Source of the DNA: Singulisphaera sp. GP187
GTDB taxonomy: Bacteria; Planctomycetota; Phycisphaerae; Phycisphaerales; SM1A02
Direction of reading: 5' to 3'
Length of the DNA: 64,000 nt
NCBI GenBank assembly: GCA_945868805.1
Contig: CAMBMO010000003.1
Span: 1-64,000 of the forward strand
Shown here: positions 14,043 to 24,660 of the stretch, piece by piece
How the letters are laid out: each line of letters opens with the position of its first letter
How positions within the stretch are numbered: the first letter of the stretch is position 1
Notes under the pieces: generated by a model
The model's database searches: none
What the model saw: the letters and a program-made list of their open reading frames with translations, nothing else
Told to the model about the DNA's origin: nothing
Program-made: the position numbers and the translations under genes

Positions 14043-14219
14043 CTTGGGTGGATCATAACTCGCTTTAATAGCACAATTTGAATAGTTGAAGACTTTGGTT
14101 TGAAAGCGACGATAGGTACCTTGAGCCTAGAGTTTGGGCTCACCACAAGGATGTCACGAGTAGACGTCGGGCCGCTGCTGAAGATGGATCTGAAGCGACG
14201 GTCGTAGGAGTTGCATCAC

Positions 14220-14534
14220 ATGTCCGAATCCAATCGAGCGACGACACCCATGACCACCATGACCACCATGACCACCATGACCACTGCGACATCGACACCA
14301 TCAATGAATCCCATGAGCGTCGACGCCTGTTCGAATGTTCGAGAACTCGCGTCTGACTCGGTTGACCACTCGCAAGAACACGCGCGACATCTAGCGCACC
14401 TTCGCGCTCTGCCAGAAGTGCGCGCCGAACGCATCGCGAAGTTAAAGCAGATGATCGCCGATGGAACTTTCGACACCGAGACCAGACTCTCCGCGGCAAT
14501 CGACCGGATGCTTGAAGAACTTCGGCATCGCTGA
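14220..14534 (+). CDS. FlgM-like anti-sigma factor
   Basis: I placed the start at the ATG that has GTAGGAG 9 nt upstream; a TTG at 14211 is also in frame. The C-terminal part (VRAERIAKLKQMIADGTFDTETRLSAAIDRML) matches FlgM, the inhibitor of flagellar sigma-28, whose members read '..R..KV..LK..I..G.Y..'. FlgM is unfolded when free, and the N-terminal 50 residues here are also disordered and Met/Thr-rich. No flagellar operon is in the window. Planctomycete FlgM-domain proteins are sometimes far from flagellar genes, so the partner sigma is unknown. Confidence 0.7.
   Translation: MSESNRATTPMTTMTTMTTMTTATSTPSMNPMSVDACSNVRELASDSVDHSQEHARHLAHLRALPEVRAERIAKLKQMIADGTFDTETRLSAAIDRMLEELRHR
14250..14285 (+). 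repeat. Four 9-bp tandem repeats (ATGACCACC) near the start of the FlgM-like gene
   Basis: Units lie at 14250, 14259, 14268 and 14277, the last ending ACT rather than ACC. They encode Met-Thr-Thr in frame. Confidence 0.95.
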
Positions 14535-19649: not shown

Positions 19650-20747
19650 ATGTTGCGGACCCCACTTTGCGTGATTGCGTCTTTCTCGTTGCTTGCTTCG
19701 TGCTCATCGGAGCCGATGATCGAAGGCGGGGATCCGATTGCGGAGCCGATTGCGGATCCGATTGCGGAGCCGATTTCGGAGCCGGCCGACGAAACTTTGG
19801 CAGCGACGGAGCCAACTGAGCCTGTCGAGGTGGCGGTGGCTCCGACCGAAGTCGCGCCTGTGCCAACTGAAGTCGCGCCTGTGCCAACTGAAGTCGCGCC
19901 TGTGCCGACCGAAGTCGCGCCTGTGCCTACAGAAGTCGCACCAGTGCCAACTGAAGTCGCGCCTGTGCCTACAGAAGTCGCACCAGTGCCAACTGAAGTC
20001 GCACCAGTGCCAACTGAAGTCGCGCCAGTGCCAACTGAAGTCGCACCAGTGCCAACTGAAGTCGCACCTGTGCCAACTGAAGTCGCACCAGTGCCAACTG
20101 AAGTCGCGCCTGTGCCGGCACCCACTCCGCAACCTCGGATCGATGTCGAGTTCGTCGGCGAAGATGTGTTTGTCTCGATCGGCGGCCAACGAGTCGCAAA
20201 GGAGCATCTCCGTCGGACTGCCGATGCGATGGAGATCATTGGAACCACTGGGCAAATCCTGCAGACCATTCCGATTCCGCAACCCAAAGATCATCCTCCA
20301 GTCATGATTGGGGTTCGATTTGAGACGCCAGGCAGAGCGCTCGCGAAGCAAATCGGACAAGAAGTCTCGAACTACTCCCTCGTCGTTGCCGTGATGGAGG
20401 GCGGTCCTGGATTTCTCGCGGGACTCGAAGACTTCGATCTCGTAACTGCTGTCGATGGCAAGGTTCCGGCTACGCCAACTGCTATCCGCGATCGTCTCAA
20501 GTCGATGGCACCGGGAGAATCGATCGTGCTAACTGTCCGTCGAGGTTCCGCCAGTAGGGATTTTTCGCTCCAATCGCAAGCGTGGAAACATGTTCCGCTC
20601 CCTGCATCGATTCAACCACCGCCTCTTGCTCGCAATCCATCACCTGTGGTTGCGCCAATGCCAGGTACCCCGAATGCGCCGTCCAATACCGGCGCCAATG
20701 GACGACCCGCCGCCGCTCCGCAGCGATCAGCAACTCCCAATCCATAA
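19650..20747 (+). CDS. PDZ-domain lipoprotein with a 12-unit VPTEVAP repeat stalk
   Basis: The 365-residue protein has a lipoprotein signal (LLASC, Cys18) and a run of acidic 'EPIAEP/ADPI' residues. The stalk follows at about residues 64-157, made of 7-residue units PVPTEVA. Next come a small domain and a PDZ domain (MIGVRFETPG, then VVAVMEGGPGFLAGLEDFDLVTAVDGK, then IVLTVRRGS) near 215-310. The C-terminus is Pro/Ala-rich. The plan suggests a surface or periplasmic tether: lipid anchor, stiff Pro-rich rod and a peptide-binding module. No protease domain is attached. Its partner is unknown. Confidence 0.8.
   Translation: MLRTPLCVIASFSLLASCSSEPMIEGGDPIAEPIADPIAEPISEPADETLAATEPTEPVEVAVAPTEVAPVPTEVAPVPTEVAPVPTEVAPVPTEVAPVPTEVAPVPTEVAPVPTEVAPVPTEVAPVPTEVAPVPTEVAPVPTEVAPVPTEVAPVPAPTPQPRIDVEFVGEDVFVSIGGQRVAKEHLRRTADAMEIIGTTGQILQTIPIPQPKDHPPVMIGVRFETPGRALAKQIGQEVSNYSLVVAVMEGGPGFLAGLEDFDLVTAVDGKVPATPTAIRDRLKSMAPGESIVLTVRRGSASRDFSLQSQAWKHVPLPASIQPPPLARNPSPVVAPMPGTPNAPSNTGANGRPAAAPQRSATPNP
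19857..20108 (+). repeat. Twelve 21-bp coding tandem repeats (PVPTEVA)
   Basis: Twelve full units of 21 bp fill 19857-20108, flanked by a partial unit on each side. The peptide is identical in all of them, but third codon positions differ (CCT/CCA for Pro, ACT/ACC/ACA for Thr, GCG/GCA for Ala). Confidence 0.97.
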
Positions 20748-21081: not shown

Positions 21082-22329
21082 TCACAGAGGCGCGGGGCCG
21101 ACGACAACGAGTGCCGCATCCGCAATGCGCTCAGGTGCAAGTGCATCCGCGGCTTGATCGTTGACTTGCGCGATCGTCATCCGATCAATCGAAGCGACGA
21201 TTTCGGCGAGCGTGCGAACTCGTCCAAGTCGAAAAAGATCCCCCGCAATCGCCGATGCGCGGGCCATCGTGCTCTCCCCAGCCATCACGACTCCACTCTT
21301 GATTCCAATGACTGCGCGACTGAACTCTTCCGCAGTCACGCCACGAACCATGCGGGCAAGCTCTCTCCGGATGCAATCCAATGTCTCGGCGGCCCGCTCC
21401 GGCGTGCTGCCCGCATAGACAGTCATCAAGCCCCGGTCGCGCCCGCACGCATAGCTCATGCCGACCGAGTAACAAAGCCCTCGTTTCTCGCGAACCTCGG
21501 AAAAGAGGCGATTCGACATTCCCCCTCCACCAAGCACACGCACGACGAATTTGGTAGGAAGGCTCGCAGCGTCTGATTCCTTGGGAGCCGGAAGCGAAAG
21601 ACAGACGTGGGACTGCGCAGACGGTTGCTTCTCGTGAAGCGAACCAATCCTTGGAGGCGCTGAAACTATCGGTTCAATCGATGTTCCGGTCCATCCTTCG
21701 AGAAGTCGCTCCATTAACTCTCGGATCATCGACGGTTGGATGCCACCGGCGACTCCCATAATGCTGCCACCGGGACGGCATCGACGATTCCATGTCGCGC
21801 GAAGACTCTCAGTGGTGAGGGCGTTGAGTCCGGCCTCAGTGCCATACCCATGCCCACCGAATGGCGAAGGAAGCGAGATCTCGGCGATCTTGATGCTCGC
21901 GTAGTGTTGTGGGTCGTCAGTCAACGATCCGAGCGACTGAAGTGCCAGCTCCCTGCTGGCATCAAGCGACTCCTGGTCAATTGTGGGATGCAGAACCAGA
22001 TCCCGGAGCAGTTCCATCGTCTTGATCGTCTCCGCCACGAGGCATGTTGCAGAAATGGTGATCACATAGGGCGAACTTGAGGTTGCTCGCTGAACTCCGA
22101 GAAGATCGAGCGCATCACTGAACTCCCGACTCGAGCGATCCCCCGCGCCTCTCAGTATGACCTCCGAGAGCACGTTGGACTCTCCCGACCCCAAATCGCC
22201 GATCGGATCTCCCGCTGAACCAACTGGAACAGTCCAAACGATGGTCGCGGTCGCGGCTGCCTCGATCGGTTCCACTGCAAGTTTCATTCCCCCCGCAACA
22301 TCGAAAACTTCAACGCCATTTGTCTTCAA
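21082..22329 (-). CDS. M16-type peptidase-like subunit without the zinc motif
   Basis: The 415-residue protein has the two-domain M16 pattern: ANLRG-like N-terminal strands (MKLAVEPIEAAATATIVWTV), a helical segment and the C-terminal signature (VRVLGGGGMSNRLFSEVREKRGLCYSVGMSY). The HxxEH zinc motif is missing; the equivalent stretch reads LSEVILRGAGDRSSREF. Non-catalytic M16 subunits normally pair with an active one. The only active M16 gene in the window is about 9.5 kb away at 31838. It follows dapB with a 4-bp ATGA overlap. Confidence 0.85.
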   Translation of the reverse strand: MKTNGVEVFDVAGGMKLAVEPIEAAATATIVWTVPVGSAGDPIGDLGSGESNVLSEVILRGAGDRSSREFSDALDLLGVQRATSSSPYVITISATCLVAETIKTMELLRDLVLHPTIDQESLDASRELALQSLGSLTDDPQHYASIKIAEISLPSPFGGHGYGTEAGLNALTTESLRATWNRRCRPGGSIMGVAGGIQPSMIRELMERLLEGWTGTSIEPIVSAPPRIGSLHEKQPSAQSHVCLSLPAPKESDAASLPTKFVVRVLGGGGMSNRLFSEVREKRGLCYSVGMSYACGRDRGLMTVYAGSTPERAAETLDCIRRELARMVRGVTAEEFSRAVIGIKSGVVMAGESTMARASAIAGDLFRLGRVRTLAEIVASIDRMTIAQVNDQAADALAPERIADAALVVVGPAPL

Positions 22330-23078
22330 TCAGTTGCCTTCCTTATGTCTACAAACCAATCATCCAATCCGTACAGACCTGGCAGTTGCTTGGCGACCCA
22401 GAACGCGAGTCGGATTGCTCCGAGGGCGAAAAGATCGCGGTTTTCAGCATGATGTCGGAGCGAGAGCTTCTCGCCAGGCCCGCTCCAAATCACTTCGTGA
22501 TCGCCCACCACATCGCCCTCGCGAATTGACTCGATGAGTTCGAATGGGAACGGTTTCCCGCGGCCTCTCGCAACTGAATCAGCAAGCGCAAGGGCCGTAC
22601 CAGATGGTTGATCAAGTTTCTTGACATGATGCGCCTCGGTGATCGAGACTTCGAAGTCGGGTGACAGGAGTCGAGCCGCCTCCGAAACGAGATAGCGCAT
22701 GACCGCGACACCGATTGAGGTGTTCGGCGCGATCAAAACGGGGATTTGGCTCGAGGCGATCTTCATTGCCTCCTTCGTCTCGTCGCTCAAGCCTGTTGTG
22801 CCGATCAAGATCGCCACATTCGCCTTTTGCGCCAGTCGCACAGCGCTACGCGACCCCGCATCGCTCGAGAAGTCAATGACAGCCTCAAACTCTGACTCGA
22901 TCGACCGCGATGGCACCGCTGAATCTTGAGGAGAGAGATCATGTCGAGCGACGACGACCACCGACCCATTGGAGTGCTGAGCAACCAGGTCGATGCGTTG
23001 TCCCATCCTCCCAGAGGCCCCATGGAGACAGATTCTGAATGGACGGATTTGACAGGGTGGGGGCATGTACTGAATCAT
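22326..23078 (-). CDS. dapB: 4-hydroxy-tetrahydrodipicolinate reductase
   Basis: DapB makes tetrahydrodipicolinate in the lysine/diaminopimelate pathway, using NAD(P)H. The sequence has the nucleotide-binding CLHGASGRMGQR, GTTGLSDE, an APNTSIGVAVM segment and the catalytic signature TEAHHVKKLDQPSGTA, and ends typically. I chose the ATG at 23078 because AGGA lies 9 nt upstream; the ATG at 23066 is four codons later, and an open frame extends further upstream. The stop overlaps the M16 gene by 4 bp. Confidence 0.92.
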   Translation of the reverse strand: MIQYMPPPCQIRPFRICLHGASGRMGQRIDLVAQHSNGSVVVVARHDLSPQDSAVPSRSIESEFEAVIDFSSDAGSRSAVRLAQKANVAILIGTTGLSDETKEAMKIASSQIPVLIAPNTSIGVAVMRYLVSEAARLLSPDFEVSITEAHHVKKLDQPSGTALALADSVARGRGKPFPFELIESIREGDVVGDHEVIWSGPGEKLSLRHHAENRDLFALGAIRLAFWVAKQLPGLYGLDDWFVDIRKATD

Positions 23079-23197
23079 GTACTCAAGTCCTGATCTCGAA
23101 TAGTCGATAACATTATTGACTGTTCCTGAGTGAGCGCCCTCGTTACGCTGGCGACCACTCTCTCCGACGCACAAGCGTAACTAAAGGAAGCCACACC

Positions 23198-23254
23198 ATG
23201 GCAAAGAAGAAAGCTGCTAAGAAGGCTGCGAAGAAGGCTAAGAAGAGCCGGTAA
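23198..23254 (+). CDS. 18-residue Lys/Ala-rich microprotein
   Basis: The full product is MAKKKAAKKAAKKAKKSR. Eleven of its 18 residues are basic (10 Lys and one Arg), spaced as in histone-H1/HU-type tails. AAAGGAAG sits 7 nt before the ATG, and a perfect 12-13 bp terminator hairpin follows 23 nt after the stop. No longer frame contains it and no host gene is broken here. It may be a nucleic-acid or polyphosphate binding peptide; this is inference. A TACGCT at 23144 could be a -10, but I see no good -35. Confidence 0.6.
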   Translation: MAKKKAAKKAAKKAKKSR

Positions 23255-23277
23255 GTCGCAGAGACTGAATGATTTGT

Positions 23278-23315
23278 ACCGAAAGCCGGCAACGATGCCG
23301 GCTTTCGGTGCGTTT
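23278..23315 (+). terminator. Strong intrinsic terminator after the microprotein
   Basis: CCGAAAGCCGGC at 23279-23290 pairs perfectly with GCCGGCTTTCGG at 23297-23308 around the loop AACGAT; A23278 and T23309 extend the stem. GCG and TTTT follow. It separates the microprotein from the ferredoxin gene. Confidence 0.85.
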
Positions 23316-23354
23316 TGGACACATTTCCCTGCTGTTTGCTAGTATTTTTCAACT

Positions 23355-23624
23355 ATGCCTCACATCATTGCCGAGCCTTGCATTGGAACGAAGGATGCTT
23401 CATGCATCGAGGTCTGTCCTGTTGATTGCATTCATCCGACAAAAAAAGGTGAGCAACATGAGAAGGTCGATCAGTTGTTCATCGATCCAGAAACTTGCAT
23501 CGACTGTGGTTTGTGCGTCGACGAGTGTCCAGTTCAGGCAATCTTTCCAAAGGACGATTTGCCCGCCGAGTGGCACAAGTACATCGAAATCAATGCAAAC
23601 TGGTTTAAAAAAGAAAAATCCTGA
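23355..23624 (+). CDS. fdxA: 7Fe/8Fe ferredoxin
   Basis: The 89-residue protein has the pattern C-x7-C-x3-CP (CIGTKDASCIEVCPVDC) and then CIDCGLCVDECPV. This is the FdxA-type arrangement with a [3Fe-4S]-like first site and a full [4Fe-4S] second site. The C-terminus (AEWHKYIEINANW) is also typical. It carries electrons between soluble redox enzymes; the partner is not in the window. TAGTAT lies 9 nt before the ATG and no ribosome binding site is visible. Confidence 0.9.
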   Translation: MPHIIAEPCIGTKDASCIEVCPVDCIHPTKKGEQHEKVDQLFIDPETCIDCGLCVDECPVQAIFPKDDLPAEWHKYIEINANWFKKEKS

Positions 23625-23702
23625 AGATTTTTTTTGGTGACCAGCGAACGCTTCGTTTCGCGACCAACTCTCCCCCGATCAGACTCTGGACGAGAACCGG
23701 AT

Positions 23703-24116
23703 TTAATCGGGATCCGATGATGACTTGTTGACCCCACTCGCCGAGTTTGGCTTCTCGGTCCAATCTGGAACCTTGCCACCCAAATTCAGTTCCGTTGGCA
23801 TTGTCTTGCGGTATCCCAACTTACGAACGACCTCGAGGACATCCGTCCAACTTGGAAATGTCTTGTGATTGACGCGCTTGAACGCATCGATCGCAAGCAA
23901 GAATGTGAATTGCTCACGCGACATCTCGCCCTCTTCGGCTGACTTCACGAAATCGGTCAATCGTCTACCTGGGCCGCGTCTGCGTTCGAGATTCGTCGGG
24001 TCCGCTGGCGCAATGTCTCGCCGATCAATTCCGACACGACGATCGACGACAGATTCGTCACGTTTGATCGATCGGTCACCCGAATTCCCATTGCTAGATG
24101 GTGGTTGTGTTGTCAT
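23703..24116 (-). CDS. Hypothetical protein with RR-rich N-terminal motif
   Basis: The 137-residue protein has a disordered N-terminus, the motif RRVGIDRRD, then LERRRGPGRRLTDF, then a helical domain (REQFTFLLAIDAFKRVN and PSWTDVLEVVRKLGYRK). The 'RR.G.DRR' element is seen in many regulatory proteins with PilZ or receiver domains, but there is no PilZ fold here. The second half could be a small DNA- or protein-binding helical domain. GAGGAG lies well placed before the start. I cannot assign a function. Confidence 0.65.
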   Translation of the reverse strand: MTTQPPSSNGNSGDRSIKRDESVVDRRVGIDRRDIAPADPTNLERRRGPGRRLTDFVKSAEEGEMSREQFTFLLAIDAFKRVNHKTFPSWTDVLEVVRKLGYRKTMPTELNLGGKVPDWTEKPNSASGVNKSSSDPD

Positions 24117-24177
24117 AGATCGCTCCTCGTAGTGGCTCGCGAGCGTACTCTAGTCTTTCTCGCACCTTCTCCCTCTA

Positions 24178-24660
24178 ATGGCACACGACAGCGATCAACT
24201 CGACGAACCGCTTCACTGGCGCGCAGCCGTTTTGGGTTGGATTTGCCCAGGAATGGGTCAAATCATGATCGGTCATCGACGTCGCGGCATCTTCGCGATG
24301 ATCGGAATACTCGGCCTCTTTTTGGGAGGACTTTTGATCGGTGGCGTCGACTCTGTCGATCGTCGCGACGATCCACTCTGGTTCTACGCTCAGGCAGGCG
24401 CGGGTCCGATCGCATTCGCGGCCGATTGGGCGAATTTGGGGCTCCTGAAGAGTGGAAAGGTGGGAGAGTTGGTCGAGTCTCCTCCGTCCAATCCGCGCGA
24501 GGCGCCACCACTCGTCAGTACTTTTAAGACCGTCACCGTCGCCAATGAGATCGGGATCTTGTACTGCGCGCTTGCTGGATTGATGAATGTCGTCGTCATT
24601 TTGGATGCACTCAAGCGCCCGATCGCCACCCGCATCGACCAGGAACGATCCCGCCGATGA
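24178..24660 (+). CDS. Membrane protein, DUF6677/TM2-like
   Basis: The 160-residue protein has WRAAVLGWICPGMGQIMIGHRRRGIFAMIGILGLFLGG, the 'P-G-x-G-q-...-G-..-R-G' pattern of TM2- and DUF6677-like membrane proteins, and a second hydrophobic pair at the C-terminus (GILYCALAGLMNVVVIL). About 3-4 transmembrane segments are likely. The function of this group is not established. It is coupled to the next gene by a 4-bp overlap. Confidence 0.65.
   Translation: MAHDSDQLDEPLHWRAAVLGWICPGMGQIMIGHRRRGIFAMIGILGLFLGGLLIGGVDSVDRRDDPLWFYAQAGAGPIAFAADWANLGLLKSGKVGELVESPPSNPREAPPLVSTFKTVTVANEIGILYCALAGLMNVVVILDALKRPIATRIDQERSRR

Follow-up and report, generated by a model that had tools for sequence, protein, structure and literature searches.

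Genes and features at the micro-ORF locus

Between a divergent dapB gene, whose start codon was placed by reading the sequence, and a gene for an fdxA-like ferredoxin, the window (the whole 64-kb stretch of DNA that was analysed) contains a frame of 18 codons that begins with the ATG at 23198-23200 and ends with the TAA at 23252-23254 (Table 1). Lysine accounts for 50% of its residues, and among the 491 frames of 12-60 amino acids that start with ATG in the window the runner-up reaches 17%; in 20 dinucleotide-shuffled windows the highest lysine share was 25%. From these comparisons it is concluded that the micro-ORF is not a chance frame. Purine-rich sites similar to its ribosome site AAAGGAAG are present in the leader alignments of relatives, and the micro-ORF is presumably translated. 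Folding of the region 23170-23330 gave a z of -4.78, and none of 200 shuffles was equally stable.

Table 1. Positions of features at the micro-ORF locus and at the flgM locus of the window
Feature	Position	Strand	Basis or remark
FliA-like promoter site, TGAAG-N16-GACGATA	14087-14114	+	upstream of flgM
FlgM-like anti-sigma28 factor	14220-14534	+	PF04316, 29.7 and 29.2 bits (cut-off 25)
dapB (4-hydroxy-tetrahydrodipicolinate reductase), divergent neighbour	22326-23078	-	TIGR00036, 162.5 bits (cut-off 122)
sigma28 (FliA)-like promoter: TCAAG 23083-23087, N15, GTCGATAA 23103-23110	23083-23110	+	conservation, consensus
Leader helix P1	23128-23132/23156-23160 and 23135-23138/23150-23153	+	arm-swap energies
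Pseudoknot helix: loop GTTACGCT with AGCGTAAC	23142-23149/23174-23181	+	covariation
Loop joining P1 to the pseudoknot 3' strand	23161-23173	+	contains CTCCGAC 23162-23168
Ribosome site AAAGGAAG, SD-like	23183-23190	+	7 nt 5' of the ATG
Micro-ORF MAKKKAAKKAAKKAKKSR and stop	23198-23254	+	frame reading, conservation, composition test
Terminator-like hairpin, 13 perfect pairs	23278-23290/23297-23309	+	followed by TTTT
fdxA-like ferredoxin, downstream neighbour	23355-23624	+	NCBIfam FdxA models match below their cut-offs

The hairpin behind the micro-ORF begins 23 nt past the stop codon, reaches 17 bp when flanking and wobble pairs are included, and is followed by four T only (GCGTTTTGG); a consensus scan for terminators did not pick it up. 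The sequence-only reading had described an 18-residue frame with a ribosome site and a perfect terminator. Frame, ribosome site and the perfect pairing of the hairpin were confirmed, and with only four T the hairpin is a plausible but not a textbook terminator. Of 90 distinct 3' flanks, 82 can form a stem of 9 pairs or longer within 100 nt of the stop codon when G-T is counted as a pair, the mean stem being 12.7 pairs versus 6.6 in shuffled flanks, and in 71 of the 90 at least four T occur in the 10 nt behind the stem. Paired changes in the hairpin were seen at three loci (L007, L008 and L011). Past the hairpin and ahead of the ferredoxin gene there is a -10-like TAGTAT (23340-23345).

A ferredoxin gene lies downstream in 87 of the 90 loci with enough sequence when two motif scans, which reached 50 and 70 of the 90, are joined; L255, L262 and L265 are missed, 12 further loci end too soon, and L250, L252 and L272 are outside the set. 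The motif of the divergent dapB was detected in 77 of 96 loci with at least 300 nt upstream. At L018 (G021) the scan finds no frame at the usual place upstream of fdxA, and a 28-residue MAKRRRASKKAGKKTGKKKARRRRKSKM frame is found on the minus strand, beyond fdxA and some 546 nt away from its start. Elsewhere in the window, at 19650-20747 on the plus strand, an open reading frame contains about a dozen EVAPVPT repeats and then a region that looks PDZ-like by eye.

Conservation of the frame and its range of lengths

Anchoring on the ferredoxin neighbour in 41 genomes yielded 30 loci, 17 of which belong to the same genus (the window and 16 relatives). All 17 show the order dapB, micro-ORF, fdxA, and their frames have 16-19 codons, take the form MAKKK...K[SG]R and start 153-172 nt 5' of the ferredoxin gene. 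Length differences between these frames amount to whole codons, and the 11 copies that have 18 codons show synonymous changes in three codon columns and a replacement (Ala to Thr) in one. Frame, ribosome site and hairpin are kept together in 17 of 17 loci of the genus and in most family loci read, rather than the hairpin being kept and the frame lost. The earlier proposal of an independent unit with a genuine short frame thereby holds, as its own ribosome site, frame and hairpin are all conserved. Two of the 19 genomes of the genus (G004 and G016) lack both the leader and a close match to fdxA, possibly due to assembly gaps.

In other genera of the family the same locus encodes lysine-rich repeats of 18 (L023), 33 (L019), 98 (L026) and 172 (L027) residues, and in a genome of another family 74 lysine-rich residues are encoded there (L028). 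Members from the family, which belongs to the order Phycisphaerales, thus reach up to 172 residues with repeats of Lys, Ala, Thr and Arg, and the micro-ORF is, as judged from these predicted frames, the short end of a gene family extending to 172 amino acids. Among 400 genomes from the order, a leader pattern matched 67, all in the family of the window, and its reversed control matched none of the 400. Of the 68 places, 65 were read (G267, G327 and the second place in G323 were left out), and in each of the 65 a MA(A)[KR]K frame begins 15-20 nt further on; 63 of these frames are complete and have 16-113 amino acids with a median of 21, Lys making up 53% and Ala 32%.

A covariance model that takes in the leader and the start (R1), run at a permissive E of 0.1, gave matches in 136 of the 181 genomes of the family and in 38 of its 45 genera. 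When 40 R1 loci beyond the pattern set were read, a script returned a lysine-rich frame for 38, of which L272 (G044) is false and HU-like, and an internal start had been chosen in L246, L256 and L266; the loci that gave no lysine-rich frame were L250, with a frame of 7 codons, and L252, at a contig end. The protein at L272 (G044:C1), HU-like by eye, carries a lysine-rich N-terminal tail, MAKKKKTTKKKATKKAAAPAK.... In the genus g28, 13 of 13 genomes have FliA and R1 matches none, and at L341 of this genus a repeat protein of 147 amino acids is encoded downstream of TAAAG-N16-CCCGATAT. On the strength of these genome comparisons it is well supported that the locus holds a real gene for an 18-residue, half-lysine, histone-tail-like protein, conserved in this planctomycete group.

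Structure and covariation of the leader

The leader between promoter and ribosome site can be drawn as an H-type pseudoknot in which the loop of helix P1, GTTACGC(T), pairs with (A)GCGTAAC further downstream, and the 3' strand of this second pairing stops one base short of the ribosome site. P1 varies in sequence between genera while its pairing stays. Averaged over 51 distinct arm pairs, which come from 10 genera, P1 had a duplex energy of -16.5 kcal/mol with a leader's own arms versus -8.9 kcal/mol when arms were swapped between genera; swaps within a genus gave -13.1 kcal/mol, and none of 2000 one-per-genus permutations matched the observed pairing energy.

As the first set of leaders had been chosen for the letters of the pseudoknot, a set of 48 leaders was used for the second helix, 32 selected for CTCCGA and 16 brought in by R1; in loci chosen by the pattern the helix has no room to vary, so that its covariation rests on the 16 R1 leaders. 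In the 48 leaders 99.4% of cells are paired, 14 cells are altered on both sides, and the double changes include GCTACGC/GCGTAGC, GTTGCGC/GCGCAAC, GTCACGC/GCGTGAC and GGTACGC/GCGTACC. Neither the covariation score nor the paired percentage was reached by any of 500 shuffles; two of the five measures are modest, namely the number of pairs changed on both sides and that of further pair types, which 21 and 23 of 500 shuffles reached. When the register was slid, pairing fell to 13.7-42.1%. CTCCGAC is unchanged in every one of the 48 leaders aligned; for 32 of them CTCCGA had been a selection criterion. These comparisons support well a predicted H-type pseudoknot that is conserved with covariation in both of its helices.

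The energies of P1 mark the sense strand weakly (p = 0.075), with G-U pairs in 54 of 523 cases on the sense and 29 of 491 on the antisense strand; the strand of the leader is fixed by the way in which its ribosome site, the frame and the terminator point. A model of the leader alone (R2), run at E 0.01 on 400 genomes of the order, matched 112, all from the family of the window and mostly with a single copy. Rfam covariance models, run over 22800-24200 with E values up to 5, gave no family match to the copy in the window, and the sole chance match, MIR5048, scored 13.6 bits where its gathering score is 160. The leader, both of whose helices covary, is a new candidate for a regulatory RNA. At 13 loci (L254, L257-L259, L262, L263, L267-L271, L273 and L341) the promoter block is kept, and mostly CTCCGAC as well, and the leader is a different one; these different leaders, which belong to genera with longer proteins, often have a GGCGG..CCGCC hairpin.

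Promoter and the FliA/FlgM pair

Upstream of the leader lies a block that resembles the promoters of the flagellar-type sigma factor sigma28. The published consensus is TAAAGTTT-n11-GCCGATAA (PMC2859248), and compared with the E. coli form TAAA-N15-GCCGATAA (PMC2859248) the window has TCAA-N16-GTCGATAA, so that the -10 element is similar, whereas the -35 element is TCAA and not TAAA and 16-17 nt here separate the boxes, versus 15 in the E. coli consensus. TCAAG and CGATAAC are present in 17 of 17 loci of the genus. The 60% consensus of 51 CGAT-anchored leaders, 2 lines of which are anchored on the wrong CGAT, is T.AAG...CTT..C.......GCCGATAA..GTA.AA, and one whole genus, g20, has TCAAC instead of TCAAG. 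In 99 distinct upstream regions of the family the loose form of the promoter was found in 57 and the strict form in 39, versus 17 and 0 of 1980 shuffled regions. Another pair of boxes, TTGACA (23049) with AATCAT, was ruled out as a promoter as it overlaps the dapB start.

The genome of the window encodes both the sigma factor and its anti-sigma factor, another point of likeness to sigma28 regulons. Its FliA/WhiG sigma factor scores 237.5 bits with TIGR02479 (cut-off 189.6), and the FlgM-like gene is in the window itself. The pattern T[ACG]AAG-N15/16-G.CGATA has two sites in the 64-kb window, one at 14087 before flgM and one at 23083, versus an average of 0.1 and a maximum of 1 in 40 shuffled windows; the pattern had been widened after the flgM site was seen, and T[AC]AAG with G[CT]CGATA occurs only at 23083. 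FliA is above the cut-off in 161-162 of 181 family genomes. Flagellin was matched in 79 of the 181; no flagellin match was obtained in the genome of the window or in any of 19 genomes of the genus. The flagellar genes covered were flagellin and FliA across the family and FlgM in the genome of the window. In other bacteria WhiG acts in sporulation and has been linked to type IV pili (PMC8325347).

Across 61 family genomes TMAAG-N16-GYCGATAW gave 28 sites versus 4 for the reversed control, a fixed-spacing pattern that misses the window's own N15 site and any site in G000. Behind the 28 sites are 2 leaders (L328 and L334), 1 FlgM-like gene (L324; PF04316 23.6 bits, just below the cut-off of 25), 9 coiled-coil genes and 16 assorted or unassigned genes. 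By eye, the coiled-coil gene behind TMAAG-N16-GCCGATAA is the same in the nine genomes (L312, L315, L316, L317, L319, L320, L322, L325 and L326), and most copies contain the stretches PRV[LI]DQ and LQERL.L.ARM[LI]KA; one of the nine proteins was scanned with Pfam and matched no named family. Possibly, this gene is a further sigma28 target. Within 400 nt upstream of flagellin genes, which would be evident targets of sigma28, the hexamer [GT][CT]CGAT occurred at 5 of 30 loci, with no TNAAG at the right distance among those listed, and inspection of 230 nt by eye at 29 of the 30 loci revealed no sigma28-like promoter of the form described here.

Taken together, the evidence for sigma28 control of the micro-ORF is suggestive and indirect. 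The same gene and leader might instead be read from a housekeeping sigma70-type promoter, CCGATA then being a regulator site within the spacer, a reading that we regard as possible if rather doubtful. In its favour, 40 leaders from genera other than that of the window give ...CTT..C.......GCCGATAA.GGTACAACT as their 60% consensus, and for most of these other genera it is tentatively conceivable that a CTTCAC-like -35 box, a spacer of 17-18 nt and a -10 box TACAAC or TATAAC are used. However, the genus of the window is without that -10 box and yet keeps TCAAG and CGATAAC at every locus, and similar boxes with similar spacing precede flgM.

Likeness to histone H1-like and other proteins

The longer orthologues were compared with models of known basic proteins; the 18-residue protein itself is below the 20-residue limit of the scan. 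Among eight longer orthologues scanned with the HC2 model (PF07382) there was no match in four, and the other four scored 19.5, 21.9, 25.9 and 33.7 bits, all below the gathering cut-off of 40, although two of them align end to end with the model. Variable numbers of short lysine-rich repeats, a trait of HC2, are found here as well (16-172 amino acids, with AAKK and TRKKA). The H1-like model NF038053 from Burkholderia (NCBIfam) matched four of seven longer orthologues with 15.8-27.0 bits, below its cut-off of 80, and gave no match in the other three. Low-complexity composition alone could explain the HC2 and H1 matches. The histone H1-like composition proposed from the sequence alone finds an echo in these weak HC2 matches of some long forms; the roles suggested along with it, compacting DNA, binding polyphosphate or acting as a counter-ion, are conceivable for the peptide. 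The longer family members, the pseudoknot leader and the sigma28-like promoter had escaped that first reading.

Chlamydiota and Planctomycetota belong to the same superphylum, and hctB is not known to us to have a pseudoknot leader. In C. trachomatis sigma28 has been reported to bind two promoters only, those of hctB and tsp, HctB being the H1-like protein by which DNA is bound and condensed (PMC12282069). The protein of the window resembles this chlamydial Hc2 (HctB) in having lysine-rich H1-like repeats in variable number; Hc2 has 165-237 amino acids (PMC2848022) versus 18 here. With a sigma28-driven H1-like HctB in Chlamydia, promoter type, protein type and superphylum thus coincide. Within the Chlamydiaceae, HctB is listed among the genes common to Chlamydia and Chlamydiifrater only (PMC10448858), and common descent is therefore no more probable than convergence.

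The KPAA tails of AlgP and PhaF from Pseudomonas likewise consist of disordered Lys/Ala repeats, which bind DNA and have been tied to granule placement (PMC9239181), with the difference that they are the C-terminal domain of a larger protein whereas the window encodes the tail alone. Of the published designs that we are aware of, the Downstream-peptide RNA (RF01704) comes nearest to this leader; in it, a structured, conserved 5' leader precedes frames of 17-100 amino acids that also show synonymous and codon-multiple changes (PMC2864571); that RNA is cyanobacterial, and the copy in the window matched neither RF01704 nor any other Rfam family. A literature search, in which most subscription papers were outside the scope, found no paper describing the gene or its leader.

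With a pseudoknot beside the ribosome site, the leader described here resembles autoregulatory leaders of ribosomal proteins. The peptide could accordingly serve ribosomes, RNA or polyphosphate and not DNA, with a leader that is autoregulatory as in ribosomal-protein operons. Besides the placement of the pseudoknot, the requirement of the AlgP KPAA tail for the spacing of polyphosphate granules (PMC9239181) points in this direction; no single polyanion is favoured by the evidence, and it is HC2 that some long forms resemble, which leaves this role a minority possibility in our estimate.

Discussion

We lean, on balance, towards the view that the locus contains a gene for a minimal polycation resembling a histone H1 tail, which would be controlled by FliA and FlgM, gated in its translation by the pseudoknot, and active as a polyanion-binding peptide. 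The gene, its frame, the predicted leader structure, the 3' hairpin and the conserved place are borne out by comparison between genomes. The sigma28-type promoter would be read by the FliA/WhiG factor of the genome and held back by FlgM, giving a short mRNA of about 195 nt (roughly 23118-23313) with the pseudoknot at its 5' end. As the 3' strand of the pseudoknot ends one base before the ribosome site, forming or melting of the knot, whether brought about by the peptide, by some other protein or by a ligand, would set the rate of translation. The resulting strongly basic peptide of 18 residues would bind polyanions, most likely chromosomal DNA, in the manner of Hc2 or the AlgP tails, though a polycation of this length may bind any polyanion, and the transcript would be ended by the hairpin ahead of fdxA. 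The position of the transcription start, the use of sigma28, an on/off role of the knot and DNA binding are the inferred elements of this scheme.

A dual-function RNA, in which the small structured transcript itself would be the regulatory product and the short frame incidental, appears unlikely. Its length of about 195 nt, the structures at both ends and the very short frame would suit such a role, as would L250 (from position 218; G167), which retains leader and 3' hairpin with a frame of 7 codons, MAAKKKK, resulting from either repeat contraction or assembly collapse; against it, none of the 65 pattern loci that were read has lost the MA(A)[KR]K frame, its start and the ribosome site show conservation, and in other genera the frame far exceeds the size of a small RNA. 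An attenuator, in which a lysine-rich leader peptide would sense Lys-tRNA or ribosome speed, steer the hairpin and control the next gene, would fit with half of the codons being Lys, a terminator-like hairpin behind them and dapB of the lysine pathway adjoining, but is highly improbable given that dapB is on the opposite strand, that the next gene is nearly always a ferredoxin gene and not a biosynthetic lysine gene, in the window with its own -10-like box past the hairpin, that orthologues at the same place reach 98-172 amino acids, a length needless for an attenuator, and that the conserved structure precedes the frame.

Returning to the polycation gene with its proposed FliA/FlgM control, it is a new variant of the histone-H1-like genes. 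A bolder and more speculative proposal, which we would not yet expect to prove correct, is that in Phycisphaerales without a flagellin gene the flagellar FliA/FlgM pair became a switch for chromosome compaction that drives a histone-tail microprotein gated in its translation by a pseudoknot RNA of a new class, in parallel to the sigma28-HctB switch of Chlamydia and with the protein shrunk to 18 residues. The locus is a concrete target for studying the role of flagellar-type sigma factors in bacteria without flagellin genes, and it bears on the minimum size at which a histone-like protein is still kept by selection. As a single gene at a single locus spans 16-172 residues, the family offers a natural length series for the physics of polycation-DNA interaction.
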